A stretch of DNA of 64,000 nucleotides from Phototrophicus methaneseepsis (lineage in GTDB: Bacteria > Chloroflexota > Anaerolineae > Aggregatilineales > Phototrophicaceae): assembly GCF_015500095.1 (NCBI RefSeq), contig NZ_CP062983.1, positions 4,960,001 to 5,024,000 on the forward strand, read 5' to 3'. Position numbers and translations under genes: made by a program. Shown here one piece after another: positions 7,531 through 45,486 of this stretch (position 1 is the stretch's first letter; every line of letters starts with the position of its first letter). The notes under the pieces were generated by a model, which worked only from the letters and a program-made list of their open reading frames with translations, did no database searches and was not told the origin of the DNA.

Positions 7531-8940
7531 CTAACGTGATGGTGGCAAGGCTGCCAACTCCTGCAAATAGGCCATTAATGCCTGTGCCTCGATGCTATCC
7601 GCCCCCAGGCCTGTACCACCCTGCATAGCCTGTATATGTGTATCCAGCCACCCGGTATCAACAGATACGGCCTCATCGACAGAGGCGGCCCCCTGCCGCA
7701 GTATAGGCGTTACAGCTCCGCCCCATGTGCGGCCATCACTCAGGCCATCCATATGGCAGTTGGCACAACTGGTGCTATGCTGAGCGCTCAACCGCCGGTC
7801 ATTGGCATCATAAAACAGCCGTGCGCCAACCTGTGATAAAGCATCTGGCACGATGTTAGATGTGCTCATGGTATCCGACAGGCTGCGATAATACGCGTCA
7901 AATTCGGTAATCGTCTGGTCAACGGTGTTGTGAATATAGAGCGTCAGGGCATCCGCACTCAGCACAATATCGCCCGGTGCAGCCCCTGTATTCAAATGCC
8001 TGAAGCCATACAGCGCATAATCAGTATCCATATCCATTGCCGTCAGGGTGGCACTCCCCGCATGTGTGATATACAGCAAATTACGACCGCGATCAATCAA
8101 GGCCATATGGGGCATATTCATCATGCGGTCGACAAGGGGTAAGAAAATCTGCAAATCCTGTCGCAGCATCATCTCACTGAGATCAACCACATTGATGACG
8201 GGCAGCATGCGGGCCTCCGGCGCGGCATTTACAAGCTGTGCATTGGTCACTGTTTGCGGCAAATAAGCCAACCCATTACGGCGATCAATAGCAATACTGG
8301 CAGAAAGTGATACGTCGTCATCCATGGCGAGCGTCGTCATCAGCGTATTGCTGGCGCGATCAATCAAGCTTAATTCGCCGGACCAGTAATGCGTGATATA
8401 CAGCCAACTGCCCCAGATTGCCAACCCTGAAGGCGCATCCGGCACAGCAATACGGGCCTGTTCAGTACCTGTTTCCAGGTCCAGCAGGACGATTTCATCA
8501 TCTCCCTGCACGCTGACGTAAATTGTGCCATCACGGACGAGAGCCGCATAAGGCAACTGCCCCACTTCATAGGTACCTAAGACGCTCTCTTCGAGCAAAT
8601 CCACCACACTGACAGTACCGTCTTCCCGGTTCACGACCGCGGCCCGCACACCATCCTGGGCCAACGCAACGCTGCTGGGAGCCTGCCCGACTTCAATTTC
8701 CGCATCAATGATGCCGCCGCGTGGTGCCAGAATGCTGACTGTATCACTGAGTGCATTAGCGATGAGCAACCGCCTGCTTGGCAATTCCAACATGCTGCCG
8801 CTGGCAATCACTGGCGACCCAATCGGCAGCGGATAAGCCGGGGCCTGGGCGGAAACAACCGCGATGCAGGTTAAAAGCGAAGAAGTGAACAACCAGATAA
8901 ATAACCAGCGGAACAATTTCATAAGCGAGCTAACTCTCAT
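7531..8940 (-). CDS. Secreted YVTN beta-propeller protein with a single c-type haem motif
   Basis: 469 residues. A membrane-spanning signal sequence (LFRWLFIWLFTSSLLTCIAV) is followed by about 300 residues of YVTN-type blades such as IANALSDTVSILAP, AAVVNREDGTVSVVDLLE and IYVSVQGDDEIVLLDLETG. The last 100 residues are a cytochrome c/MauG-like segment: GARLFYDANDRRLSAQHSTS precedes a CANCH haem-binding motif, and DGRTWGGAVTPILRQ follows it. It is therefore probably an exported electron-transfer protein. It overlaps the upstream 880-residue gene by 4 bp, so the two are translationally coupled. A start at the ATG giving MKLFRWL is also possible. The redox partner is unknown. Confidence 0.85.
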   Translation of the reverse strand: MRVSSLMKLFRWLFIWLFTSSLLTCIAVVSAQAPAYPLPIGSPVIASGSMLELPSRRLLIANALSDTVSILAPRGGIIDAEIEVGQAPSSVALAQDGVRAAVVNREDGTVSVVDLLEESVLGTYEVGQLPYAALVRDGTIYVSVQGDDEIVLLDLETGTEQARIAVPDAPSGLAIWGSWLYITHYWSGELSLIDRASNTLMTTLAMDDDVSLSASIAIDRRNGLAYLPQTVTNAQLVNAAPEARMLPVINVVDLSEMMLRQDLQIFLPLVDRMMNMPHMALIDRGRNLLYITHAGSATLTAMDMDTDYALYGFRHLNTGAAPGDIVLSADALTLYIHNTVDQTITEFDAYYRSLSDTMSTSNIVPDALSQVGARLFYDANDRRLSAQHSTSCANCHMDGLSDGRTWGGAVTPILRQGAASVDEAVSVDTGWLDTHIQAMQGGTGLGADSIEAQALMAYLQELAALPPSR

Positions 8941-11579
8941 CGGACGCGGTCATGCAAGATGCTGTAGGTATGCGTAGCCGTCACAGCCTGCCCATCCGCA
9001 TCCAGGCCTGTGATTGCAAACGTCACCATCACCACATCGGCGGCGGCTGGCCCGCTGCCAGTGCCATTCGGCTCCAGATTTGGGGCCTCTGTACGGAAGT
9101 TCGCCGGACTGTAGCTATAGGCTATTCGCTCGCCAGAAACCACCAATTCTGTCATGTCCAGCATCTGGCTAGCCGTTGATACCGTGACGTGAGCGTTTAA
9201 ATCAGTCCAGCCTTCCGGCACATTGACGGAAAGATAAACGGGCTGCCCTGGCGCGACCTGTGGCAGTGGTCCTTGCAAGTCAGGGGCATCCTCTGGCACG
9301 ACATAAACCGCATAGTTTGTTTCCACACCGGGAACGCCCCCCGTGACAGGCGTTGTTATCATACTGGCTGATGTCTGCCCGGTGAAGCTAGCGCTTATAT
9401 TCATTTGCCAAATGCCCACTTCGTCAAACGTCAGAGGCGCATCGAGAGCCGCAACGTGCCCAAAGCGATTGGCATGGGCCTGCACAGTGTATTGGGCACC
9501 TGATGGCGCTGTCGCTGTGAGCATTACATCGGCTGGCAGCGTAGGCGCTACTTGTCCGGCGAAGGCATCCACAGCACCCAGCGTGTAGACCTGCCCCGGT
9601 CGCAAGGTCGTCGGGAGGATAAGCATGGATTCATCATCTATCAGCGGCTGCTGAAAAGGCGGCACGACACGAGCCGTCTCATCGTCATCCGTGATGACCG
9701 CCAACGACGCATAGCCACCCACTGCGCCGCCATCATCGACCACGCCGCCAAACAGGAACACGAGATCGCCCTGTCGGTTACCTGTCATACCAGCCCCCAT
9801 CTGACCATCGAGCAAGTCATCATTGCGCCAGATAAGGCCCGGCAGCGACACACCCGTGCGGGTTACAGCCTGACGCACGCGCACATCGGGCCGCACAGCA
9901 CTAAATAGTGCGAAGGCATCGTCCGCAGGCCCAGGTATGTGGAGCACAGGCTGCATACCCACTTCCGCGTTATCCGGCAGATAAGCCACATCGCCACTGA
10001 AAGCAGGCCAGTTCACGATGGGAGGCAAATAGGGATTGTCATCTGGATAGACGGCCATATCGAACCAGGCTTGCTGTTGACCATATGGATCGCCGGTATA
10101 GCCTGCCACGCCGCGCGCACCTTGTGGCACCATCAGCGAATCACCGGAATCAACGACGCCAGCCGCGCTTAAATCGCCGGACCACATTTGTTCGTCTGCG
10201 TCTACGCCGCGCACAGCATACTCGACAACATAATGACCCGGCACATCGAATGAGAAGGCATCTATATTGAGCGCGACGCCATGCTGAAGAGATAGCGCCC
10301 AGGTGCGCGTCTCAGGCTCCCCTTGCAATGGATAGAACCTCAGGGTCACATCAGCTTGCGCATCTCTGAGGTTGAGAATAGGTTGAATCGTAAAGCCAGG
10401 TAAAAAACCGTTGCCAATTTCATACGGCGTTCCGGGCAGCACATCGGGCAGAATATGCAGTGGCTCTGACGTGGGTTCTTGTAAAGATTGCCCAGGAGAG
10501 TCTCCCAGATAATACGATTCGCCATCCCACATCACGAGATCATCCGCAAACAGCGCCTGCCAATCGGCTAAGAGTCGATTTTCCGGCCAGGGCACGTGCG
10601 ATGTATTGAATTGCACGCCGTTCATAAAGACGACTGTATCAAGATGAAGCGTCGGCACATCACCCACAGGCCCCACAGCCAGGAAGATCGGCAGGGCAAC
10701 CTGTGACGTGCCCGGATCGCCAACGCCATTAAAACGTGTGCCGTTCACGCTCAAGAGACGGTTATCATACCAATCCGCAGCTTCGCTATCCGCAACAGCG
10801 ACACGGCCACTCAAAACGAGTTGATACCAACCTTCACCCAGCGTCTCCGGCACCACACCCTGGAAATCCAGCGTGAATGCGAACAAGCCCGCCTCAGCAT
10901 CAACACAAATATCATCCGTGATAGCCGTCAGCCAGGGGAAAGGCGCGTCAGCCTCGCCCAGGATGGGTAAACCAGACGAAGTCAACGTCGCGGACCAGGT
11001 CTCGCTGGCAGGCATCAGCGGCGCGCCATCGCCATCCAGAATAGGCTGTAAGCTGAGGTCACCCACAATGGTGAGTGGCAATTCGGGGTTGGTATCCGGG
11101 GCGATAAAGACGACTTCAACAGAACCACGCACCTCATCACCCGGCTGCACATCGGATAAATCAAATGTACCGCTCGCCAACCACGTTCCACCGCCATAGG
11201 CGAGCTGACCACCTGCTACAAATGAATCACTCAAGGGGGCCATCATCAGGCGCGCACTCGTATCCGGCACATCGCCAGCCGTGCGCATCGTCTGGGGGAT
11301 GCTGGGGGCCCTGTAGACACGATATGGCATATCCCGCAGGCCCACTGTCTCAATGGCAAAGCCGCCTTCGCTATCAGCGGTGCCATAATCGACACGGCCC
11401 GTATAGATATTCTCAATCGCGACCTGGCTGTTTGCAGGGACTGTCCCCGCCCCTGCTGTAAAAGTGGTCTCCGTCACCACTGAGCACGCATTAGCGGCCT
11501 GCGGCGTCTCATCCTCCTGTGCCAACACAGGCAGGATGAAGCACATCAACAGCACGAGCAGCGAGAGGCAGCGTCTCAT
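8937..11579 (-). CDS. Large secreted beta-rich protein of unknown function
   Basis: 880 residues with a clear type I signal peptide (RRCLSLLVLLMCFILPVLAQ, then EDE). The mature part is Asp/Gly/Pro/Val-rich and nearly cysteine-free, consistent with stacked beta-sandwich or Ig-like domains. Late segments such as TAPSGAQYTVQAH, FDEVGIWQMNISA and VPEGWTDLNAHVTV look like Ig-like repeats. There is no C-terminal membrane anchor or sorting signal. I do not recognise a family. It lies between the P-loop protein (4-nt gap upstream) and the haem propeller (4-bp overlap downstream), so all three are very likely one transcript. It may be a periplasmic or surface partner of the propeller. Confidence 0.75.
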   Translation of the reverse strand: MRRCLSLLVLLMCFILPVLAQEDETPQAANACSVVTETTFTAGAGTVPANSQVAIENIYTGRVDYGTADSEGGFAIETVGLRDMPYRVYRAPSIPQTMRTAGDVPDTSARLMMAPLSDSFVAGGQLAYGGGTWLASGTFDLSDVQPGDEVRGSVEVVFIAPDTNPELPLTIVGDLSLQPILDGDGAPLMPASETWSATLTSSGLPILGEADAPFPWLTAITDDICVDAEAGLFAFTLDFQGVVPETLGEGWYQLVLSGRVAVADSEAADWYDNRLLSVNGTRFNGVGDPGTSQVALPIFLAVGPVGDVPTLHLDTVVFMNGVQFNTSHVPWPENRLLADWQALFADDLVMWDGESYYLGDSPGQSLQEPTSEPLHILPDVLPGTPYEIGNGFLPGFTIQPILNLRDAQADVTLRFYPLQGEPETRTWALSLQHGVALNIDAFSFDVPGHYVVEYAVRGVDADEQMWSGDLSAAGVVDSGDSLMVPQGARGVAGYTGDPYGQQQAWFDMAVYPDDNPYLPPIVNWPAFSGDVAYLPDNAEVGMQPVLHIPGPADDAFALFSAVRPDVRVRQAVTRTGVSLPGLIWRNDDLLDGQMGAGMTGNRQGDLVFLFGGVVDDGGAVGGYASLAVITDDDETARVVPPFQQPLIDDESMLILPTTLRPGQVYTLGAVDAFAGQVAPTLPADVMLTATAPSGAQYTVQAHANRFGHVAALDAPLTFDEVGIWQMNISASFTGQTSASMITTPVTGGVPGVETNYAVYVVPEDAPDLQGPLPQVAPGQPVYLSVNVPEGWTDLNAHVTVSTASQMLDMTELVVSGERIAYSYSPANFRTEAPNLEPNGTGSGPAAADVVMVTFAITGLDADGQAVTATHTYSILHDRVR

Positions 11580-12370: not shown

Positions 12371-13693
12371 ATGACAAGCTCAGGTAAACTATTCATGAGC
12401 CTGTACCAGAAAGTGAACCGAGTCATGATTGACGGCATTGAACCTGGGGAAACGTCCCCGACTGAAAACCTCAGCCATATTCATATTATGGGCCGAGAAG
12501 CCATCTATATGCAGGTGCAGCAGCATATGATGGATACGACTTCGCGGCAGGCACTGGCTTATATTGGCTATCCTGGCACAGGCAAGACAGCCCTCCTGCG
12601 CCAACTGCCTATGTATGTTGATCTGGCGATTATCAGTGTGTTTTTGCCCATCGCTGAACTCACTTTAGAAAATGAAGATGCCCTTCTGACGCGCTTCGTC
12701 ATCCGCACCAATCAGGTCATGTCTCAATACGATTACAGCATGAGCCGCATTCCATCGCTGAGTGACGATGAAGACAGCCCGCCAATGCGTGATTGGCTCA
12801 AAGAGACTTACTTGCCGGAAGTGCTCCACATCATCCGGGGCCAGCGGCGGTTGGTGTGGTTGTTGGATGACTTCGACCTCTTGCTGGATGCCATCGATAA
12901 AAACACGCTGCCCGATGATTTCGTCACCTTCCTACAAGAATTACTGGTAGCGTATCCCCCTTTTGGCATCGTCTTAACTGCCGATACGGATGCCGAATCT
13001 CGGCTGCTGAATCTTGGGACATTTCTCAGCACCAGCAGCATTCATCGTTTACAATCCCTACCGCAAGAAGCCGGCCTCGCGATGCTGCAAGATACAGCCC
13101 CTTACTTTAGCGAAGGTGATCTCAAAAAATTGTATCAGGCCACAGGCGGCCATGCTCTCTGGCTGGCGAGGGCTGCAAATGCCCTCGACCCAACGGCCAC
13201 AATCAGCGAGATCATCGATTACATTTATAAGCACAGCACAAGCGACATCGCTGCAATCTGGGCAAGGCTCAGCCCGAACGAGCAGACAATCCTCCAGGCT
13301 ATCGCAGAACGTTACTATCAGGACCCCTTATCCCCTGTCACACTGGCTGATGTCACACAGTGGGTCATCAACAGCGATGCCAGCATGGATAGCACCGATA
13401 TCCACAGTGCGCTGCGCGGCTTAGAATATCGAGAATTGATTCTGACGGGGGAAAATATTCAGATTCGTTCTGAATTGGTCCGGCGCTGGCTGCTCTCCAA
13501 CCAGCCCCATGACGCCACAGTCAACAAGCGTCAGACGAACGAAGCTCAGCCAAGCAGTATCCAGCTCAATTGGCGTTGGATCGCAGTCATCATCCTGCTA
13601 ATCGTGATTATCCTGGCTGTCGCGGCCTATCTGGGCCAGCCACCCACATTAGATGGCAGTGAAGCGCTGCCAACTGTCACGTTTAGCTCGTAA
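12371..13693 (+). CDS. AAA/STAND-like ATPase with C-terminal membrane anchor
   Basis: 440 residues. An N-terminal P-loop NTPase of the Orc1/STAND type carries Walker A GYPGTGKT at about 70 and Walker B RRLVWLLDDFDLLLD at about 165. A sensor-like segment, FGIVLTADTDAESRL, follows. A helical/winged-helix stretch at about 290-380 (ARLSPNEQTILQAIAERYY, LRGLEYRELILTGENIQIRSE) comes next, and a single membrane helix lies near the C-terminus (WIAVIILLIVIILAVAAYL). The topology suggests a cytoplasmic NTPase switch tethered to the membrane. It converges with the transmembrane Ser/Thr kinase gene; the two stops are 6 bp apart. No partner domain such as TPR, WD40 or a nuclease is fused to it. Function unknown, perhaps part of the surrounding signalling block. 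Confidence 0.8.
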   Translation: MTSSGKLFMSLYQKVNRVMIDGIEPGETSPTENLSHIHIMGREAIYMQVQQHMMDTTSRQALAYIGYPGTGKTALLRQLPMYVDLAIISVFLPIAELTLENEDALLTRFVIRTNQVMSQYDYSMSRIPSLSDDEDSPPMRDWLKETYLPEVLHIIRGQRRLVWLLDDFDLLLDAIDKNTLPDDFVTFLQELLVAYPPFGIVLTADTDAESRLLNLGTFLSTSSIHRLQSLPQEAGLAMLQDTAPYFSEGDLKKLYQATGGHALWLARAANALDPTATISEIIDYIYKHSTSDIAAIWARLSPNEQTILQAIAERYYQDPLSPVTLADVTQWVINSDASMDSTDIHSALRGLEYRELILTGENIQIRSELVRRWLLSNQPHDATVNKRQTNEAQPSSIQLNWRWIAVIILLIVIILAVAAYLGQPPTLDGSEALPTVTFSS

Positions 13694-13699
13694 GCACCG

Positions 13700-15871
13700 C
13701 TAAGGGATATCGACCAGACAGCGCACTTCGTTAAAGGTATCCGGGATCAAAACCGGGCAAATCGTCAGCACGTCAACACGGCCCAGGCGCACTTCGAGGT
13801 AAGAGCGCCGCGGATTGTCGCTGATCCAGAATGGATTGGCAATCTGGCGGAAGTACGAGCGCGTCGCGCACATATCAGCGGGCGGCTCATCCCCTGGCAG
13901 CGTGACAAACCGCAGCGTCCAGACCTGCAAACAATTATGCGATAAGAGCCCCTGGCTGAGGCTGCTCAGGTCAGTGACTGAAAATGTCTGTGTGTGGATG
14001 ATAGGCGCTTCATTGACATCATCATAAATGGGGTCCGGCTCAAAGAGCAGGAACCGCAAATTACGCATCTGATAGTTAGCCTGCGATGTGCGGTTGTAGA
14101 TGACAAAAGTACGGCCATCATAACGCAGCAAAATCTCAGCCTGGTCAAACTGGCTCATTTCGATACGTGGCGTTGCAGAAGGCGCACCATAAGGGGTATT
14201 CGTCGGCGTCGGCGTGGCGGTATCTGTAGGTGTCGGCGTATCGGTTGGGGTCAATGTCGGCGTGGCCGTATCGGTTGCCGTAGCAGTCGGTGTATCCGTC
14301 GCCGTGGCAGTCGGCGTATCGGTTGGGGTAGCCGTATCCGTCGGTGTCGGTGTTTCAGTCGGCGTATTAGAAGGCGTGTAAGTTTCGGTCGGCGTGGCCG
14401 TATCTGTGGGCGTTGGTGTCCCGGTATCGGTCGGCGTCGGCGTCAGGGTATCTGTGGGTGTTGGCGTATTCGATGGCGTCAGAGTATCCGTCGGCGTAGC
14501 CGTATCGGTTGGTGTCGATGTAGCTGTAGCAGTCGGCGTATCCGTCGGAATTGCGGCAAGGGTCGATGCAGCGTTTTCAGTTTCCTGGGCGTTCATAATC
14601 GCCACTTCTGTCCGGCCTGCATCTGTAGCGAGGACAACAGCGGTATCTGTCACATTTGCGGCCACGGCGGTTTGTGTCGCTTCGATCTGCTGTTGGCGAT
14701 CCCGAAATAACAGCACAGCGAACCCAACAATCATGACGAGAAAGAGAATGGCGACCAGCGACCAGCCAATCCCACCGCCGCGTTTCCGCGTATTAGGCTC
14801 AGGTGTAGGAGGCTGCGGTGCCTCTCTGGTTGCATCAATAGGCGGCGGACCAGCCACGCCACCCCCTGCGGGCGAACCCGCTTGAGCGGGTCCCTTTTCC
14901 GACGGGGGGAGCGCATCAAGAGGGGCCATACGTGTATGGGCCGGGGTCGCTGTCAACCCCACTGTAGGGATTTCAGCCTCTTTAAGCGGCTTGCTATCCG
15001 ATGAAAGAGGCAATCCCGATTGCGGTTTGGAAATATCAAAAGCGGTTGCCAACGCATTGATAAAATCCATGCAGGTCGCATAACGATTCTGAGGATTCTT
15101 ATCCAGTGCCTTTAACAATACCGCTTCGGCCAATGGCGAAGCATCCGGCACAATCGACGTTAGCGGCGGCGGTGGATCACTAATATGTTTGAGCGCCACA
15201 CTCATGGCGGAAGCATCATCAAAAGGGACGCGACCGGCAAGCACTTCAAAGGCAATCACAGCGAGCGAATACTGATCTGACTGAGGTACAGCCTGTGCGG
15301 AAGAAACAGCCTGCTCTGGCGCGATGTAATGGACACTACCAAAGGTATTGCCTATCGTGCCTTCAAGGGAATTAAGCGCCAAGCCAAAATCCATCAATAT
15401 GGCGCGGTCATTGGCATTAACGATGATATTCGATGGTTTAACGTCGCGGTGGATGATACTGTGCTGATGCGCATGGTCCAGCGCGCTGGCAATATCCCCC
15501 AGGATATGCACCAATCGCCAGGGTGTGATCGGCTCATCGCCAATCAGCTTCATCATCTGGCGCAGATTGCGGCCTTCGATGTAAGCCATGGCGATATAAT
15601 ATAAGTCTTCGTATTCGCCAAATTGATAAATACTGACGATATTGGGATGATCCAGCCGAGCAATGGACTTGGCCTCCCGTTGGAAGCGTGCTCGATACTC
15701 CGCCTGATCATCACCCGCCATCAGGCGCGGCTCAATGACCTTCACGGCAGCATAGCGCTCTAGTTTCTCATCGTACCCGCGATAGACATGCGCCATGCCC
15801 CCTGTGCCGAGGACTTTTTCAATTTGGTAGTCGCCTAAAACCTTACCAATAAGCGGATCGATGATGGGCAT
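13700..15871 (-). CDS. Transmembrane Ser/Thr protein kinase (PknB-like) with Thr/Pro-rich linker
   Basis: 723 residues. Kinase domain at about 14-275: glycine loop LGTGGMAHVY (21-30), catalytic Lys44, HRDVKPSN at 141-148, DFG at 161-163 and the APEQ motif at about 184. A Pro-rich juxtamembrane region follows, then one membrane helix (WSLVAILFLVMIVGFAVLLF, about 372-391). An outer stretch of about 110 residues of TPTDT-type repeats comes next, and a C-terminal domain of about 160 residues with several cysteines that I do not recognise. By topology the outer domain senses and the inner kinase signals. All catalytic residues are present. The gene is divergent from the ClpC-like gene, with about 460 bp of AT-rich DNA between them. 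Confidence 0.94.
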   Translation of the reverse strand: MPIIDPLIGKVLGDYQIEKVLGTGGMAHVYRGYDEKLERYAAVKVIEPRLMAGDDQAEYRARFQREAKSIARLDHPNIVSIYQFGEYEDLYYIAMAYIEGRNLRQMMKLIGDEPITPWRLVHILGDIASALDHAHQHSIIHRDVKPSNIIVNANDRAILMDFGLALNSLEGTIGNTFGSVHYIAPEQAVSSAQAVPQSDQYSLAVIAFEVLAGRVPFDDASAMSVALKHISDPPPPLTSIVPDASPLAEAVLLKALDKNPQNRYATCMDFINALATAFDISKPQSGLPLSSDSKPLKEAEIPTVGLTATPAHTRMAPLDALPPSEKGPAQAGSPAGGGVAGPPPIDATREAPQPPTPEPNTRKRGGGIGWSLVAILFLVMIVGFAVLLFRDRQQQIEATQTAVAANVTDTAVVLATDAGRTEVAIMNAQETENAASTLAAIPTDTPTATATSTPTDTATPTDTLTPSNTPTPTDTLTPTPTDTGTPTPTDTATPTETYTPSNTPTETPTPTDTATPTDTPTATATDTPTATATDTATPTLTPTDTPTPTDTATPTPTNTPYGAPSATPRIEMSQFDQAEILLRYDGRTFVIYNRTSQANYQMRNLRFLLFEPDPIYDDVNEAPIIHTQTFSVTDLSSLSQGLLSHNCLQVWTLRFVTLPGDEPPADMCATRSYFRQIANPFWISDNPRRSYLEVRLGRVDVLTICPVLIPDTFNEVRCLVDIP
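14195..14550 (-). repeat. Degenerate tandem repeats encoding the TPTDT linker
   Basis: Imperfect 6-18 bp units (read on the plus strand as variants of GTCGGCGTATCGGTT) encode Thr-Pro-Thr-Asp repeats of the outer stalk of the kinase. They are coding, in frame, and keep the Thr/Pro content despite many synonymous changes. Confidence 0.85.
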
Positions 15872-16328: not shown

Positions 16329-18704
16329 TTGACACCATCACCCGATATTCCGGAAATTGAAATTCGTGAGCGGTGTGCCACACTGCTCAGCACGGCCACA
16401 GAAGAAGCAAGACGCTTAGGGCATAACTTCGTGGGTACGGAGCATCTTTTCATTGCCGCCACACGTACGGAGGATGGCCCCACATGTCGCTTGCTCAGAC
16501 GTGCCAATCTCAGCCCACGTCACGTGCGCAATGAGATTCGGCGTGAGGTCGGCACATCCGATGATCCTATCGGTGAAGTGCTGCCCATGACGCCACGAAC
16601 AGAAATCGTGCTCTCATTGGCGATCTTCCTGGCACAACAAGAAGACCAGCATGATGTCAGTGAACTGCACATGCTCATGGCGCTGCTGCAAGAAGGCGAA
16701 GGCGTCCCCGTGCGCAAGTTGATCGACCTGGGCTTCGACCTGAATTTTTGGCTGCAAAAGCTCATCCTGGACCAGCAGGAAAAAATACCTTATGACCTTC
16801 CTGCACAGGAAGAAATGCCCTGGGATGATGATAGTGACTTTAACCTGTCATTCTCCGATGATGACTTACTCTCGCCCCGCTCGCCCCTGGATAGCGACCC
16901 GGATATGCTGCCGACGCCCCTGCTCAACCGGTATGGACGTGATCTCACTGCTCAGGCGGCTGAAGGCAAAATCGGCCCGGCTTATGCGCGCGATAAAGAA
17001 ATCCGCGCATTGGCGCGCACATTGGCACGCAGCAAGAAAAACAATCCGCTGCTACTAGGTGATGCTGGCGTCGGCAAGACAGCGATTGTCGAAGGGTTGG
17101 CCTTTGCTATCTTCGATAAAACGGCCCCGATGCCGATGCAGGATTATCGGATCGTCCAGATTGAAATTGGCACCCTCGTCGCAGGCACCAGCTTGCGCGG
17201 CCAATTTGAAGAGCGCTTAATCGGCATCGTAGAAGAAATCAAGCGCGCTCAAAATATCATCCTATTCATTGATGAAATCCATACGATTGTTGGCGCGGGT
17301 GATACCATCGACAGCAACCTCGATGCAGCCAATATCCTCAAGCCAGCGCTTGCACGCGGTGAGATTAAATGCATCGGCGCGACAACGCACGAAGAATATC
17401 GTCGCGCTATTGCACAGGACCCTGCCCTTGCGCGGCGCTTCCGTACAATAGATGTAGAAGAACCGACCGAAGCTGATGCTGTCGTCATCCTGGATGCACA
17501 GCGTAAACGATTAGAACAACATCACGATGTGCGCATCAGCCAGGATGCCCTAGAAGCGGCTGTGAAGATGTCCGTGCGTTACCTGGCGGATCGCCGTTTG
17601 CCGGATAAAGCGCTCGACCTATTGGACGAAGCCTGCACACGCGTCACGATTCAGACGATTCACCCTGATCTACTCGACGGCGAAGACAATCGCCGTGATG
17701 TGCGCGTGGCTGATATTGCCGCCGTCCTCTCTGAATGGACGGGTATCCCAGCGACAGAACTCACCACAGATGATAAGCGCCGCCTCGCCAACCTGGAAGA
17801 CGCCCTGAAAGAACGCGTCATCGGACAGGACCGGGCCGTGCGTATGGTCGCGGAAGCCATCAAGACAGCACGAGCCGGCCTCAATGACCCGAACCGCCCT
17901 ATCGGCGTATTCCTCTTCCTGGGGACTTCCGGCGTGGGTAAAACGGAGCTTGCACGGGCACTGGCGGATTTCATGTTCGGCAGTGAAGATGCCATGCTGC
18001 GGCTGGATATGTCCGAGTTTCATGATTCGCACACGGTAGCACGCTTGATCGGGTCACCACCGGGCTATAAAGAATCCAACCAGGGCGGACAATTGACAGA
18101 TGGCCTGCGTCGTCGCCCCTATAGCGTCGTGCTGTTGGATGAAATTGAGAAAGCCGCGCCGGAGGTGTTCGACATCTTCCTACAAATCTTCGATGAAGGC
18201 CGCTTGAGCGATGCCCATGGTCGCCGCGTCGATGCACGGCATTCTGTGTTCATCATGACGAGCAACATCGGCACCCAGGAAAGTAGTAAAGTGCTGGGCT
18301 TTGGGGGGCATCAACCCGACGAAACACCGAACTTCCAACCCTTCCTGAAGCAGCGCTTCCGGGTGGAGTTCCTCAATCGCATTGATGAGGTCGTCACCTT
18401 CAACATGCTCTCGCGCGATGTCCTGAGCCGTATTCTGGATGTGCAGATGGTCGAGTTAGAGGAACGGTTAAAACATCAGCACCTTAAGCTGAGCATGACT
18501 GAAGAAGCCCGTCAGTTCATCCTGGATGAGAGCTACGACCCGGTTAATGGGGCCCGCCCACTGCGCAGGACAATTGAGCGCCTGCTGACACGACCGCTCA
18601 GTAATAAGATCGTAGAAAACAACCTGGAACCTGGCGCGACCATCGTCATCGCCCTCAATGGGGACCAATTGGAGTTCCGTGAGCGCGCCACAACGGATGG
18701 ATAA
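16329..18704 (+). CDS. ClpC-like AAA+ unfoldase lacking the usual M-domain
   Basis: 791 residues from a TTG start. The N-terminal Clp repeat domain spans about 1-150 ([15 protein letters not shown]). An acidic linker rich in Asp and Pro precedes the first AAA domain, with Walker A GDAGVGKT at about 244, [12 protein letters not shown], and the arginine-finger region ALARRF. The second AAA domain has GTSGVGKT at about 532 and [20 protein letters not shown]. An LGF tripeptide at about 657, where ClpC carries its ClpP-docking loop, suggests it feeds a ClpP protease. Between the two ATPase domains only about 25 residues replace the coiled-coil M-domain of ClpC/ClpB. It is flanked by kinase genes and no clpP is nearby. 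Confidence 0.9.
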
Positions 18705-18900: not shown

Positions 18901-21900
18901 TTGCATGCCACAACAGGAGATTGTAAGATCAATACCAATCCGCCGCTGACGAACCGTAAACCTGATCCATTGAGCGCCACGGACATTCGGCGACTGCTGA
19001 GGCAAGACCACCCGGCAGACGCGAATGATACGTTCGCAACGGATCCTCAGTCAGATATTCAGCAGGCTGGGCGGCTGGCCCTGCGCATCGCGAAGCCTGT
19101 TGATTATTACTTCTTGCTGGGGGATCTGTGTGCACAGATGGTGATGGGAGATCGTCACAAATTACGCATCTTCTATGCCGGTAAAACACTTATCGCCTAT
19201 CAAAAGGCGCTGGCTGCCGCCAACAGTGATGTCGACCGCTCCATGGCTAAGAACGCACTGGATAACTTCGTCCAGTGGCTGCTCGATATCAGCACAGCAT
19301 TTCCATCTGCCCGTAATATCGCTGTTGCGATGTGGGCCATTGCAGAAGACGCTGATGACAATGCCCTCCAACCAGCATTCAATCGCATTCAGGCGACGCA
19401 CCTCATCGAGCTCTACCGCCAGTATCTACAGGGCGAAAATGCCACCATCATGGCGCTGGATGGCGTGACGGTTCAGAGTGACTTCCAGGATGAAACCGCC
19501 CTTGGCGATCCGGAAGACCTGCCAGAAGAATACTATTCCAGCGAGATCAGCGGTACACAACTGGCTGACCTGGACCCCCCTGTTTCGGAATCGATTGATA
19601 TTAAAGTCGCGCCGATCCAGGATGAAACGCGTCTCGCAGAACAAGAAGACATCCTGACTGCTGTGACGTCCCAGGTCCACGAGGCAGAAGCCGTACACGA
19701 AAAGCCAAGGTCGCGCGTCGTCCTGGATGACATGTACGATTTCGAGATTGGCAGCCGGATGCTCTCCCGCTATGAAGTCGCGGATGTGAGGCTGGGTGGC
19801 ATGGGCATCGTCTATCTGTGTTATGACCATGAGCAGCGTCTGCCTGTGGCGATTAAATCCTTCCAACCGCGCTTCCTTGAAAATGCAAAAGCGGTGGCTC
19901 GCTTCGAACAAGAGGCTTATACGTGGGTCAAGCTGGAAAAGCACACCCATATCGTTCAGGCGCGGCTGGTCCAGAACATCAACAATCGCCCTCACATCAT
20001 CCTGGAGCATATCAGCGGGCCGGAAGGTCTGGGCGTCGATCTCAGCAGTTGGATCGGTCATCCCATGCTCACAATTGAGCAGGCCCTCCTGTTCGGCATC
20101 CATATCACATTGGGCATGCAGCACGCCGTCAACAAAATCCCTGGCCTCGTCCATCGAGACCTGAAGCCAGCCAATATCCTCGTCACATATGATGGCATTG
20201 CCAAGGTCACGGATTTTGGCCTGGTACGCTCGGTTGAGCTCGATAAAGACGAAGGCGACGACGAAGACGCCAGCGACCCCGGCGACCGCCTGACGCGATT
20301 AAATGCAGTCGTGGGCACGCCGCCTTATATGTCCCCGGAACAGTGTGAATCACGCGATGTCGATATGCGCGCCGATATTTATGCCTTCGGCTGCTTGATG
20401 TACGAAATGATCACCGGGCATCATCTGTTTAAGGTCAAAGGGACAAAAGCATGGCGGATAGCGCATATTCAGGAGATACCTCATTTTGACGATGATGTCC
20501 CCGGCGATACGCCGCCTCAACTGCTCGAACTCACGCTGAGCTGCTTACAAAAACAGCCCGAAGATCGCCCGCAGACATGGCAGGCACTCTATGATGCGCT
20601 GGTCACGCTGTATGAAGTCAACTTTGGCGAGCTGCCAACCCTGGAATTCGATGGCCCAACGCTAGAAGCGCGTGAGCTGATGGATAAGGGCTATTCCCTG
20701 ACCGAATTGGGCCGCCTGGAAGAATCCGTCGCCGCCTATGATCAGGCTATTGCTTTGCAGCCGGATTACTGGTGGGCATGGGCGCGCAAGGGGCGCACCC
20801 TGCGCCTGTTGGAGCGTTATAAAGAATCACTCGCCTGTTACGACCGCGCGCTGGAATTAAAGCCCGATTATGCCTGGGCACATAATGGCAAGGGCATCAT
20901 CCTGGACCGCATGGGCGACCTGGAAGGCGCGCTGGCATCCTTCGAGACAGCAACTCGGCTCAACCCGCATGACGTGTGGATCTGGTATAACCGGGGCGAC
21001 ATCCTGCAAAAATTGGGGCGCTATGAAGAAGCGACTGAAATTGTCCAATATGGCCTGAGTATCGATCCACGTCATCCCAATAGTTGGGCCAAGCTGGGCC
21101 AGATCTACCGGATGCAGCAGCAGTACCCAGAAGCCGTCAGCGCTTACGAGAAAGCCACTGATTTACAGCCCGATTATGCCTGGGCACACAATGGCTATGG
21201 CCTATCGTTGAAGGCGCTCGGCAAAGCACGAGAAGCGATCATCGCATTTAAGCGTGCCGCCCAATATGAGCCTGAAGTCGTATGGCACTGGTATAACCTG
21301 GCAGAAACGCTCGTGAGCATTGGCCGCTACGAAGAAGCCCTCGAGCCGATTGAACAAGCGGCCCGTATCGACCCCAATCATGCCCCGACATGGAGCAAAA
21401 AGGCGCAAATTCTACGCTATATGAAGCGCCTTGAAGAAGCACTGAATGCTTACGAACGGGCGATCAGGCTGGACCCAGAATTTGATTGGGCTATCAATGG
21501 CAAGGGTATCGTCCTGGAGCAGCTTGAACGCTATGAAGACGCCCTCGCCTGCTATGAGCGAGCCACAGAACTGGCGCCAGAGCGCGAATGGTATTGGTAC
21601 AACCAGGGCAAGGTGCTCGCACTCATCGACAGACTGAATGAGGCGCTTTTTGTACTGAACAAAGCACTGGAAATTAACGATCAGCACAGTGGCAGTTGGG
21701 CCCTGCTCGGTAATGTGTACCGCCAACAGGGCGAGCTGCAAAAATCCGCACAGGCAATACGTAAGGCGACGGAAATCGCACCAGATTATGCCTGGGCCTG
21801 GAATGAACTGGGTATCACGCTGGAAATGCTCAATGATTACCCTGGCGCGCTAGAAGCGTACCGTAATGCGAGCCTCTATGCACCGGATCAGGCCAGCTAC

Positions 21901-22965
21901 ATCTATAAGCAGGCTGATATTCTGGTGCTGTTGGACCATAATGAAGAAGCGCTCGGATTGCTCAATAGAGCCCTGGAATTAAGCAATCGCAGCGCTTATA
22001 TCTGGGCGAAACATGGGCAGGTCCTGCGCAAGCTCAACCGGCTGGAAGAAGCCCTGATGAGTTATACGCGCGCTGTGGAGCTTGAGCCAGAATATAGCTG
22101 GGCCTGGAGTGGTCGTGGCCTGACGCTCAGCCAATTGCGCCGCCATGATCAGGCGATTATCTCCTTTAAACAAGCGTTGGAGCTCGATGAGAGCGACATC
22201 TGGTCCTGGTATAACTACGCGGAAGAATTGCTCATCCATCAGGAGCCACAAAAAGCGCTAGAAGCCCTTGACGAAGCACTCGCCATAGACCCCACGCACG
22301 CCGAAAGTTGGTCTAAGTGTGGGCAGGCATTGCGCTTGCTGCGCCGCTACGACGAGTCACTATCTGCCTATAATAAAGCTGTCGAAAATCGGCCAGATTA
22401 TGCCTGGGCCTGGAGTGGGCGCGGCCTGACACTCAAGAGCATGGGCCGGCTGGAGGAAGCCATCGAGAGCTATACGCACGCCATTGAAGTCGAACCAACG
22501 AGCATCTGGTACTATATCAACAAGATGTCTACCCAGTTGGAAATGGGCCGACGCGAAGAAGCGCTGACCACCATCGAGCAGGCAGCACAAGCTCAGCCGA
22601 ACAATGCCCAGGTCTGGGCGCGTAAAGGCCAGGTCGAGCGTCGTATGAATATGATGGACCAGGCGCTAATCAGCTATACACGCGCGCTGGAACTTGATAC
22701 CACTTATGCATGGGCCTGGAATGGTAAGGGGCTGTGCCTGGGTGAACTCAAGCGGTGGGATGATGCACTTGTCTGCTATGAGCAGGCTGTTCACTATGAT
22801 AAGACGGACGTCTGGTTCTGGCATAATTATGGCGAAGCGTTATGTCGCACAGGCCGCAAGGCAGAAGCGCGCGATGCCTTTAAGAAAGCACTCAAGCTGG
22901 ATCCGCAGCACATCCCCACGCGGGAAAAGCTGCGTAAGCTGGATAACCTGGGTAGTTGCGAGTAA
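18901..22965 (+). CDS. Giant Ser/Thr protein kinase fused to 22 tetratricopeptide repeats
   Basis: 1354 residues counted from the TTG at 18901. Residues 1-285 are an acidic region I do not recognise. The kinase domain is at about 290-580 with a glycine loop RLGGMGIVYL, AIKSF with the catalytic Lys, HRDLKPAN at about 418, DFGLV, an acidic insertion in the activation loop, and MSPEQ. From residue 590 to 1337, exactly 22 gap-free 34-residue TPRs follow, then a 17-residue basic tail. The TPRs fall into a repeating set of three types. No membrane segment is seen, so this is a cytoplasmic kinase with a very long protein-binding superhelix. The start is uncertain: an AGGAG site lies 8 nt before an in-frame ATC at 18928. 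The FHA gene lies 66 bp downstream. Confidence 0.94.
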   Translation: MHATTGDCKINTNPPLTNRKPDPLSATDIRRLLRQDHPADANDTFATDPQSDIQQAGRLALRIAKPVDYYFLLGDLCAQMVMGDRHKLRIFYAGKTLIAYQKALAAANSDVDRSMAKNALDNFVQWLLDISTAFPSARNIAVAMWAIAEDADDNALQPAFNRIQATHLIELYRQYLQGENATIMALDGVTVQSDFQDETALGDPEDLPEEYYSSEISGTQLADLDPPVSESIDIKVAPIQDETRLAEQEDILTAVTSQVHEAEAVHEKPRSRVVLDDMYDFEIGSRMLSRYEVADVRLGGMGIVYLCYDHEQRLPVAIKSFQPRFLENAKAVARFEQEAYTWVKLEKHTHIVQARLVQNINNRPHIILEHISGPEGLGVDLSSWIGHPMLTIEQALLFGIHITLGMQHAVNKIPGLVHRDLKPANILVTYDGIAKVTDFGLVRSVELDKDEGDDEDASDPGDRLTRLNAVVGTPPYMSPEQCESRDVDMRADIYAFGCLMYEMITGHHLFKVKGTKAWRIAHIQEIPHFDDDVPGDTPPQLLELTLSCLQKQPEDRPQTWQALYDALVTLYEVNFGELPTLEFDGPTLEARELMDKGYSLTELGRLEESVAAYDQAIALQPDYWWAWARKGRTLRLLERYKESLACYDRALELKPDYAWAHNGKGIILDRMGDLEGALASFETATRLNPHDVWIWYNRGDILQKLGRYEEATEIVQYGLSIDPRHPNSWAKLGQIYRMQQQYPEAVSAYEKATDLQPDYAWAHNGYGLSLKALGKAREAIIAFKRAAQYEPEVVWHWYNLAETLVSIGRYEEALEPIEQAARIDPNHAPTWSKKAQILRYMKRLEEALNAYERAIRLDPEFDWAINGKGIVLEQLERYEDALACYERATELAPEREWYWYNQGKVLALIDRLNEALFVLNKALEINDQHSGSWALLGNVYRQQGELQKSAQAIRKATEIAPDYAWAWNELGITLEMLNDYPGALEAYRNASLYAPDQASYIYKQADILVLLDHNEEALGLLNRALELSNRSAYIWAKHGQVLRKLNRLEEALMSYTRAVELEPEYSWAWSGRGLTLSQLRRHDQAIISFKQALELDESDIWSWYNYAEELLIHQEPQKALEALDEALAIDPTHAESWSKCGQALRLLRRYDESLSAYNKAVENRPDYAWAWSGRGLTLKSMGRLEEAIESYTHAIEVEPTSIWYYINKMSTQLEMGRREEALTTIEQAAQAQPNNAQVWARKGQVERRMNMMDQALISYTRALELDTTYAWAWNGKGLCLGELKRWDDALVCYEQAVHYDKTDVWFWHNYGEALCRTGRKAEARDAFKKALKLDPQHIPTREKLRKLDNLGSCE
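20668..22911 (+). repeat. 22 tandem TPR-coding units of 102 bp, arranged as 306-bp super-repeats
   Basis: Every unit is exactly 34 codons. Units 3, 6, 9, 12, 15, 18 and 21 mostly open AWAWNGKG or close variants. Units 4, 7, 10, 16 and 22 open with a VWxWYN-type start, and 13 and 19 are weaker. Units 5, 8, 11, 14, 17 and 20 open with an xxSWAKxGQ-type start. So three TPRs (102 residues) form the true repeat. Confidence 0.9.
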
Positions 22966-23031: not shown

Positions 23032-23418
23032 ATGCCTGGACGAGGTGAAATTAGCATCACATTCATGAGCGGTCCGATGGACGGCAAGATTCTTAATTTT
23101 GAGCAGCCGCGTGCCGGTGATGAGCGCATCATCACCATTGGCCGCCGCGATACCTGTGATGTGCATATGCCTTTTGACAATCAGGTTTCACGCATTCATG
23201 CGCGGGTTGGCTGTGTCGCCAAACACATCACCGATACAGATATTACATCACTCCCCTCGCTGCTTCACTTCTGGCTGGAAGACGGTGGCAGCCGTAACGG
23301 GACCTTCCTGGAGAAAATGTCTGAGCCGATTATCAAGCGCGTTGATCTACGCCCCGGCACGCTTTTCCGTATTGGTCGCACATGGCTGCGCCTCGATGTC
23401 CCCATGACCTACGGATAA
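23032..23418 (+). CDS. FHA domain protein
   Basis: 128 residues, essentially one forkhead-associated domain, which binds phosphothreonine peptides. Family landmarks are present: the GR pair in [14 protein letters not shown], the S-x-x-H motif in [10 protein letters not shown], and a late [11 protein letters not shown]. It therefore looks able to bind phosphopeptide. An insertion of about 20 residues ([18 protein letters not shown]) sits between beta strands. It starts with AGGATAG upstream of the ATG, 66 bp after the TPR kinase gene on the same strand. It is a natural adaptor for that kinase or its autophosphorylated form. Confidence 0.95.
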
Positions 23419-23496: not shown

Positions 23497-24354
23497 ATGT
23501 TTATGAAGCACTACACGAATATGTTTTATAACAAAGACGAGCAGCGCATTCACACGGAAATCTGGCTGCCAGAAGCCCCACCAACAGCCATCATCCTTGT
23601 GGTACATGGCTATGCGGAGCATATCGGGCGCTATACCCCCGTTATTGAGCAAATGGTGCAAGAAGGTTACGCAGTCTATGGGCTGGATCATCGCGGGCAT
23701 GGCAAAAGCCAGGGCAAGCGCGTCTATATGGAGACGATTAATGATCTGGTCGATGATTTGCGGCAATATTTTGAATGGGTACGAGAACAGCATCCGGGCC
23801 TGCCCATCATCATACTCAGTCACAGCATGGGGACGCTCATCAGCCTGACCTTTGCCCTGCGCTACCAACAGGATTTACATGGCCTGATTATCAGCGGAAC
23901 AGCCACCAACAGCGATGAAATTTTGCCGAGTCCCCTGGTAACAGCGATGAGATGGTTAAGCCAAGTCATACCCACAGTACGGCTCGCTAGCCCCGGCGGC
24001 AATGATATCCTGACAAGGGACCAGGCCATCATCCAGGCTGTCGAAGCGGACCCACTGATTGATAAAGGCCCCTGGCGGGTCGGCATGGCCTATCGGATGA
24101 TCGAAGCGGGGCGCTATATACGTGCCCATGCCCACGAGCTGACGCTGCCCCTGCTGATCTTACATGGTGAGGCCGATAAGCTGACGCCTATCTCCGGCGC
24201 TCAGATGATCTTCGACAAAGCCAGCAGTACAGATAAAACGATCAAGATGTATCCTGGCATGCGCCACGAAGTCATGAATGAAATAGGCCGCGAAGAGGTC
24301 TTTGATGACATCAAACTCTGGCTAAAGGGCCATCTCAGTAATGTTACTCCCTGA
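23497..24354 (+). CDS. Alpha/beta hydrolase, monoacylglycerol lipase type
   Basis: 285 residues, one alpha/beta-hydrolase domain. The signature VVHGYAEHIGRY lies at the oxyanion hole, followed by GLDHRGHGKSQGKR. The nucleophile serine is in LSHSMGTL (about 109-112). The acid lies in LLILHGEADKLTP and the histidine in GMRHEVMNE near the end. This pattern is that of bacterial monoglyceride lipases and lysophospholipases. No signal peptide, so cytoplasmic or membrane-associated. It follows the FHA gene by about 80 bp but has no evident functional tie to it. Confidence 0.92.
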   Translation: MFMKHYTNMFYNKDEQRIHTEIWLPEAPPTAIILVVHGYAEHIGRYTPVIEQMVQEGYAVYGLDHRGHGKSQGKRVYMETINDLVDDLRQYFEWVREQHPGLPIIILSHSMGTLISLTFALRYQQDLHGLIISGTATNSDEILPSPLVTAMRWLSQVIPTVRLASPGGNDILTRDQAIIQAVEADPLIDKGPWRVGMAYRMIEAGRYIRAHAHELTLPLLILHGEADKLTPISGAQMIFDKASSTDKTIKMYPGMRHEVMNEIGREEVFDDIKLWLKGHLSNVTP

Positions 24355-45247: not shown

Positions 45248-45324
45248 CGGGGTGTAGCGCAGCTCGGTAGCGCGCTTGTTTTGGGTACAAGAGGCCATCG
45301 GTTCGAATCCGGTCACCCCGACCA
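45248..45324 (+). tRNA. tRNA-Pro (anticodon TGG)
   Basis: CGGGGTG acceptor pairs with CACCCCG. Anticodon arm CTTGT-TTTGGGT-ACAAG, T-arm CGGTTCGAATCCG. CCA is encoded. Confidence 0.97.
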
Positions 45325-45327
45325 CCT

Positions 45328-45398
45328 GCGGGTATGGTGTAATGGTAGCACGCGACCCTTCCAAGGTCTCAGTACGAGTTCGAATCTCGTTACCCGCT
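45328..45398 (+). tRNA. tRNA-Gly (anticodon TCC)
   Basis: GCGGGTA acceptor pairs with TACCCGC. Anticodon arm GACC-CTTCCAA-GGTC, T-arm CGAGTTCGAATCTCG. No encoded CCA. Starts 3 bp after the CCA of tRNA-Pro. Confidence 0.97.
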
Positions 45399-45414
45399 TT
45401 CACCCTTAACCCAC

Positions 45415-45486
45415 GGGCCTATAGCTCAACGGCAGAGCGCGCGGCTCATAACCGCTCGGTTCTAGGTTCGAATCCTAGTGGGCCCA
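45415..45486 (+). tRNA. tRNA-Met or tRNA-Ile2 (anticodon CAT)
   Basis: GGGCCTA acceptor pairs with TGGGCCC. Anticodon loop CTCATAA, T-arm CTAGGTTCGAATCCTAG. G1-C72 rules out the initiator. The outer anticodon-stem pair is a C-T mismatch. Elongator Met or lysidine-modified Ile cannot be separated by eye. Confidence 0.95.

Follow-up and report, generated by a model that had tools for sequence, protein, structure and literature searches.

The window analysed here, 64,000 nucleotides of Phototrophicus methaneseepsis (Chloroflexota; Anaerolineae) covering positions 4,960,001 to 5,024,000 of contig NZ_CP062983.1, carries on its forward strand a gene whose product joins a Ser/Thr kinase domain to a C-terminal arm of 22 tetratricopeptide repeats (TPRs). 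The open reading frame comprises 1354 residues from the listed TTG codon, the true start being uncertain. The gene is divided as follows, where A, B and C denote three recurring types of 34-residue unit and pLDDT is the AlphaFold per-residue confidence score.

18901..22965, forward strand: kinase/TPR gene (open reading frame list; PF00069, 4e-35; TPR_1, 1e-131; orthologues along the full length)
18928..19458, forward strand: N-terminal all-helical domain, about residues 10-186, kept in orthologues (AlphaFold; orthologue alignment)
19459..19734, forward strand: disordered linker bearing an ETR motif and, at residue 219, a conserved Thr (pLDDT mostly <50)
19747..20613, forward strand: PknB-like Ser/Thr kinase domain, about residues 283-571 (Pfam, structure match, motifs)
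20668..20769, forward strand: TPR unit 1, a capping unit of none of types A, B and C (repeat analysis)
20770..21075, forward strand: block 1, units 2-4, C-A-B (unit identity and permutation, as for all blocks)
21076..21381, forward strand: block 2, units 5-7, C-A-B
21382..21687, forward strand: block 3, units 8-10, C-A-B
21688..21993, forward strand: block 4, units 11-13, C-A-B
21994..22299, forward strand: block 5, units 14-16, C-A-B
22300..22605, forward strand: block 6, units 17-19, C-A-B
22606..22911, forward strand: block 7, units 20-22, C-A-B
22912..22962, forward strand: C-terminal capping helix after unit 22 (AlphaFold helix 1060-1072 of the model)

An earlier note on this DNA had placed 22 gap-free TPRs at 20668-22911, and our analysis returned identical coordinates, with exactly 22 x 34 codons and no indels. 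The assignment to TPRs is borne out by the unit length, the W4-L7-G8-Y11-A20-F24-A27-P32 pattern, the TPR_1 match and the modelled helix pairs. The note had further described unit types recurring with period three, which holds for units 2-22 (7 x 3, in the order C-A-B) but not for unit 1, which fits no type and is the best conserved unit across orthologues. The comparison of autocorrelation at 34 and 102 residues on which that proposal had been staked came out in favour of the longer lag, with array identity of 0.345 at 102 residues and 0.270 at 34 (0.241 at lag 68, 0.271 at 136, 0.289 at 170, 0.373 at 204 and 0.319 at 306; off-register lags 0.04-0.13) and BLOSUM62 scores per residue of 1.80 and 1.03, respectively. 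Units of the same type were more similar (identity 0.368) than units of different types (0.261; z = 10.4, 0/5000 permutations of units 2-22), and the same permutations gave no positive signal for unit periods of 2, 4, 5, 7 or 8. The arm therefore has the signature of a multi-domain super-repeat: similarity peaks, beyond chance, at a spacing of several whole units.

A tree restricted to the 21 typed units of the window gave types A, B and C one clade each, and blocks 2 and 6 paired in both the A tree and the B tree (A2/A6, B2/B6); block 4 was the most divergent, at 26-35% identity to the other blocks. Mantel tests found the block matrices of types A, B and C only weakly congruent (r 0.22-0.50, p 0.05-0.26), so that co-duplication of the three TPRs is likely rather than proven. 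At the protein level the arm is built from seven copies of a 102-residue block of three TPRs, for which block duplication is the simplest explanation. A six-TPR period was considered and set aside: lag 204 lay slightly above lag 102 and a modulo-6 test over all block orders gave p 0.029, which is no more than suggestive and could stem from the way blocks 2 and 6 pair.

The notion of a 306-bp unit copied about seven times thus survives as a 102-residue block in seven copies, but no 306-bp repeat persists in the DNA. Nucleotide identity was 0.475 against 0.422, third codon positions matched at 0.361 at the 306-bp lag against 0.335 at 102 bp, and the DNA-level check proposed in the note accordingly yielded a weak 306-bp signal, Tandem Repeats Finder listing no array here. 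The absence of a tandem array and the near-background third codon positions rule out a recent duplication at the DNA level.

Ligand contacts in TPR domains have been assigned to the concave hypervariable positions 2, 5, 9, 12, 13, 33 and 34, with position 6 contacting ligand backbones (PMC1261162). At these published groove positions same-type units of the arm matched at 0.387 and other pairs at only 0.082, whereas at all non-groove positions the values were 0.417 and 0.336; the published set is the unbiased test, a further set having been picked after inspection of a position scan. A weak period-3 signal was left outside the groove (0.395 versus 0.354, z 8.3), and away from the groove positions the window's A and C types dissolved in the unit tree. 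Conservation among orthologues was 0.76-0.92 at positions 2, 3, 5, 6, 9, 12 and 34 (0.79-0.92 without 34), while positions 13 and 33 are variable in the arm too. C units carry K/R6, mostly Q9, and R12 (7/7 in the window, 100% of orthologue C units); A units carry W2 and N5 (N5 in 5/7, and in 83% over orthologues); and B units carry W2, Y5, N6 and D/E9 (N6 in 6/7, and in 87% over orthologues). As the periodicity lies mostly in groove residues, selection on the groove, and not history alone, appears to maintain the period. TPR families overall have their most variable part in the concave groove; in this arm the groove is among the best conserved parts, and it is so with a three-TPR period.

Asparagines at positions 5 and 6 of the concave surface, the hallmark of an asparagine ladder, are present in the A and B units. 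The SPINDLY ladder asparagines also occupy positions 5 and 6, and the SPINDLY N-terminal loop wraps along the concave surface (PMC9715652), while the ladder of OGT grips the backbone of an extended substrate (PMC5967971). By analogy with both proteins, the arm is best read as a putative clamp for extended polypeptides with seven equivalent sub-sites. Consensus TPRs form superhelices of 7-8 TPRs per turn (PMC4191447), so that three TPRs would rotate by about 135-154 degrees; equivalent units would then follow a spiral ladder on the inner surface, and not form the distinct face at every third repeat that had been predicted from the sequence. On the same geometry the 22 TPRs should make about three superhelical turns.

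The structure prediction called for in the note gave the superhelix it had envisaged: the AlphaFold2 model of kinase plus arm (mean pLDDT 90.6, pTM 0.61) is a PknB-like kinase followed by a continuous predicted TPR superhelix, with helix pairs throughout the array. The best structural match of the arm was the OGT TPR domain 6eou (Z 33.1, 343 residues, root-mean-square deviation (rmsd) 6.3), and the modelled kinase matched PknB 5u94 (Z 29.0, rmsd 1.7, 256 residues; both VIA-align). The kinase motifs GGMG, VAIK, HRDLKPAN, DFG and SPE were read from the sequence and their columns are conserved in orthologues, which together with the PF00069 match and the PknB fold identifies a Hanks-type, eukaryotic-like Ser/Thr kinase. 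The N-terminal domain was modelled with pLDDT >90 for most of residues 10-150 and a further helix to 186; structure comparison listed no strong relative, the best match (Z 10.0) being to a TPR protein. T219 of the linker was invariant in 16/16 aligned sequences.

Orthologues (E <= 1e-100) were found in 44/61 related genomes, and a wider search, covering 396 genomes from the class and 400 from the phylum, gave strong matches along the full length in one order of the Anaerolineae only. In about 30 orthologues across several families each of the 22 units had its counterpart, with no more than small indels, and one of them (L030) has 22 gap-free units. An orthologue at L026 (G008:C39) has one in-frame TGA in the matched region, which may be a sequencing error or a sign of early decay. 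An orthologous unit in another genome was closer (0.485 identical) than a same-type unit (0.360) or a unit of another type (0.256), so the blocks diverged before the families split. By these identities block copying is ancient, older than the split of the sampled families. A search of a plasmid collection gave a single relative at E <= 1e-60, a kinase with 27% identity at NZ_CP128402.1 31268-33349 (H1), on a 241 kb replicon of Candidatus Chlorohelix allophototropha.

Changes in unit number were seen only in one family (f7), with 22 units in G763, 19 in G760 and G762, 18 in G758, G048 and G053, 15 in G764 and 13 in G042. The two 19-unit forms aligned best without units 12-14, equal to one block of three units, while gap placement is uncertain in the most divergent short forms; the idea that lengths always change in multiples of three is ruled out by the 18- and 15-unit forms. 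The loci of this series are L183-L187 and L068-L070, and the 18-unit forms have a 29-residue truncated TPR in common. In the short forms the period-3 signal has largely gone (z -0.1 to 2.6 on the longest gap-free runs). In an RpoB tree f7 was one clade (100/99) in which the 22-unit genome and one 19-unit genome branched outside the remaining short forms, and the members of f1, f3, f4 and f8 sampled in that tree had arrays of 22 units or close to it; G016 has one degenerate unit, and G403 of f8, which is absent from the RpoB tree, has two low-scoring stretches. Because of this placement, contraction from 22 units, first by one block, is the favoured and most parsimonious reading of the sequences. 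Growth within the order was considered, since a Clp gene tree with distant Clp outgroups roots at the short forms; the RpoB tree disagrees, and the Clp tree was given less weight because its outgroup branch is long. The topology of the kinase-domain tree left growth versus contraction undecided. The earlier proposal of growth by duplication of a three-TPR block is consequently upheld by the monophyletic types, the pairing of blocks 2 and 6 and the whole block missing in two relatives, but the growth has left no visible trace in the DNA and took place before the sampled families separated, and the length change that can be placed is a shortening, partly not in threes. The 22-19-18-15-13 series would offer a view of such an array decaying.

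The kinase/TPR gene stands between two recurrent partners, with a looser neighbour beyond:

16329..18704, forward strand: ClpA-like double AAA+ unfoldase, upstream partner (Pfam/NCBIfam; loop and spacing)
23032..23418, forward strand: FHA-domain protein, downstream partner (PF00498, 2e-12)
23497..24354, forward strand: alpha/beta hydrolase, looser neighbour (PF12146)

The FHA gene adjoins the kinase gene downstream in 26/28 genomes, the ClpA-like gene lies upstream in 21/28 (two more are at contig ends), and the hydrolase is near it in 8/28. The ClpA-like protein has no M-domain, only 66 residues between the D1 lid and D2, and an LGF loop. An [LMIV]GF loop is the ClpP docking loop of ClpA/ClpC, and one was found in D2 of the window's Clp and in every cluster orthologue from which the loop could be extracted, as expected of a ClpP-associated ATPase; the genome carries two strong ClpP-family genes. 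Among relatives without a strong kinase match, 15/17 have only generic Clps or none at threshold, and the other two have an orthologous Clp on short contigs of 4-5 kb. The FHA protein has an intact phospho-Thr pocket (GRR, SRxHA, SRNGT) whose residues are conserved among orthologues. TxxD/E is an FHA-like consensus, and the linkers of 40 orthologues contained 103 such sites against 57 +/- 6.5 in shuffles, an enrichment inflated by the kinship of the sequences; such linker sites are candidates for phospho-Thr positions at which the FHA protein might dock.

Several further features of the window were recorded. A second PknB-like kinase gene (13700-15871, reverse strand), divergently oriented, adjoins the cluster, is kept in many relatives and contains tandem repeats of 24 bp and 18 bp (14267-14497). 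The 440-residue protein encoded at 12371-13693 (forward strand), with marginal AAA/NACHT matches, turns up close to the kinase cluster, at 26-60% identity, in several members of the order and is a possible further member of the neighbourhood. An 880-residue open reading frame at 8937-11579 (reverse strand) has no Pfam or NCBIfam match and is partly conserved beside the same cluster in a sister genome (L054, 47% over the covered part). Three tRNA genes (Pro-TGG, Gly-TCC, Met-CAT) lie at 45248-45486 (forward strand). A role in anti-phage defence was dismissed, the PADLOC matches being to generic kinase and TPR models. Type VI secretion also combines a Clp (ClpV), a kinase (PpkA) and Fha; among the 18 proteins of the window that were scanned, Pfam named no Tss component.

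The closest precedent for this arrangement is PknG-GarA/OdhI of actinobacteria, in which an autophosphorylated N-terminal region, a kinase and TPRs act with the FHA substrate GarA/OdhI (PMC8546545); the two systems share a flexible N-terminal region, a Ser/Thr kinase, C-terminal TPRs and an FHA partner, here a neighbour and putative substrate. The present system differs in its 22-TPR arm, its directly adjacent FHA gene, the ClpA-like ATPase in the cluster and its confinement, in the genomes searched, to one Chloroflexota order. A rubredoxin-like domain precedes the kinase in PknG and is absent in corynebacteria (PMC8546545); the rubredoxin family was not among the Pfam matches listed (25 of 34), this domain not being universal in PknG. 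Like OGT and SPINDLY, the protein combines a catalytic domain with a long TPR superhelix bearing concave Asn at positions 5/6, although a kinase replaces the glycosyltransferase, the array is C-terminal to the enzyme, it numbers 22 TPRs against 11 in SPINDLY and 13-14 in OGT, and Asn occurs in only two of three units, the third having an invariant Arg12. The cluster Clp shares with ClpA/ClpC two AAA+ modules, the [LMIV]GF loop for ClpP and a Clp_N match, but its D1-D2 linker is very short, it lacks the M-domain, it is linked to kinase and FHA genes, and it falls below the NCBIfam cut-offs for ClpA and ClpB. TPR-kinases of the Ktedonobacteraceae (e.g. L075/L076) likewise have a kinase followed by 19-20 detected TPRs; however, the two tested show no period 3 (z ~0), their kinase domains lie beyond a long branch, and no Clp or FHA neighbour was detected where flanking DNA was present. 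Repeat arrays are known to grow several domains at once (Bjorklund et al. 2006, PMC1553488), and nebulin-type super-repeats resemble the arm in multi-domain copying and in an autocorrelation that peaks after several units (7 in nebulin, 3 in the arm), whereas the arm is bacterial, made of TPRs in three-unit blocks, ancient, saturated at the DNA level and has its period concentrated in the ligand groove. Open-licence papers yielded no description of a Clp-kinase-FHA cluster whose kinase carries three-TPR super-repeats with a conserved periodic groove; block duplication is thus known as a process, while the architecture of the arm and the cluster look undescribed.

Starting from the observed domain order, period, groove conservation and gene cluster, we propose that the C-A-B groove pattern, seven times over, would grip an extended polypeptide by its backbone, largely irrespective of sequence, and that the arm would present the clamped chain to the fused kinase. 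The kinase may phosphorylate Thr in the disordered linker N-terminal to its catalytic domain, or in the neighbour, on which the co-encoded FHA protein could dock as in the PknG/GarA-OdhI circuit. The likely output, and the most speculative step, would be the ClpA-like unfoldase, possibly with ClpP as its partner, which phosphorylation or FHA docking might switch or target onto clients held by the arm. Taken as a whole, this combination of periodic polypeptide clamp, PknG-like phospho-circuit and Clp output seems to us evenly poised between right and wrong; the specific version in which the FHA adaptor passes phosphorylated or tagged clients from the seven-fold periodic 22-TPR kinase clamp to a dedicated ClpA-like unfoldase is put forward tentatively, as rather doubtful. 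Several observations weigh against the scheme. The Clp gene is not adjacent to the kinase gene in 7 of the 28 genomes, counting the two at contig ends. The linker encoded in the window, which does have the Thr and the ETR motif, lacks TxxD/E. In f7, moreover, the arm is cut to 13-19 units and its periodicity largely lost while the Clp-kinase-FHA cluster is mostly kept, so that a seven-fold groove is not essential to the module.

The arm itself admits other readings. Were a three-TPR block simply duplicated to seven, the residual similarity would reflect ancestry and no special periodic ligand need exist; the monophyly of the types, the faint period outside the groove and the commonness of multi-domain duplication (PMC1553488) all sit well with such a history. 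It predicts, however, that within-type similarity should not differ between the groove and the rest of the unit, whereas the similarity is concentrated at groove positions, most of them well conserved across orthologues, and neutral decay would not make the A and C types dissolve off the groove; we judge history alone improbable. The converse, that TPRs were added singly and acquired period 3 afterwards, through selection for a ligand with three-TPR spacing, would explain why the signal sits in the groove, why the Mantel congruence is weak and why some relatives are one unit apart (18 versus 19). Yet three single-clade types in exact C-A-B order across seven blocks, the agreement of the A2/A6 and B2/B6 pairs and the loss of exactly one block in two relatives all come for free from block duplication, and convergence appears equally improbable.

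A third possibility leaves the origin aside and concerns the ligand: the arm might mainly bind several partner proteins, or copies of one, one per block, rather than one extended chain. One near-identical site per three TPRs would suit such a scaffold, and three-TPR domains are known peptide binders (HOP TPR1/TPR2A, PMC1261162), but Asn 5/6 in two of three units reproduces the OGT/SPINDLY backbone ladder, which holds one continuous chain, and we regard the scaffold as unlikely.

If the polypeptide clamp is the correct reading, the arm would be a natural example of a long repeat array fitted to a ligand that is regular and probably extended, and R12 - N5 - N6 would provide a testable code for peptide-binding superhelices. 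Were the proposed mechanism true, a phosphorylation-gated protein-unfolding module of this kind would be a bacterial counterpart of kinase-gated proteasomal targeting. In Chloroflexota, conservation of the Clp-kinase/TPR-FHA cluster hints at a hitherto undescribed way for signalling to reach protein unfolding.

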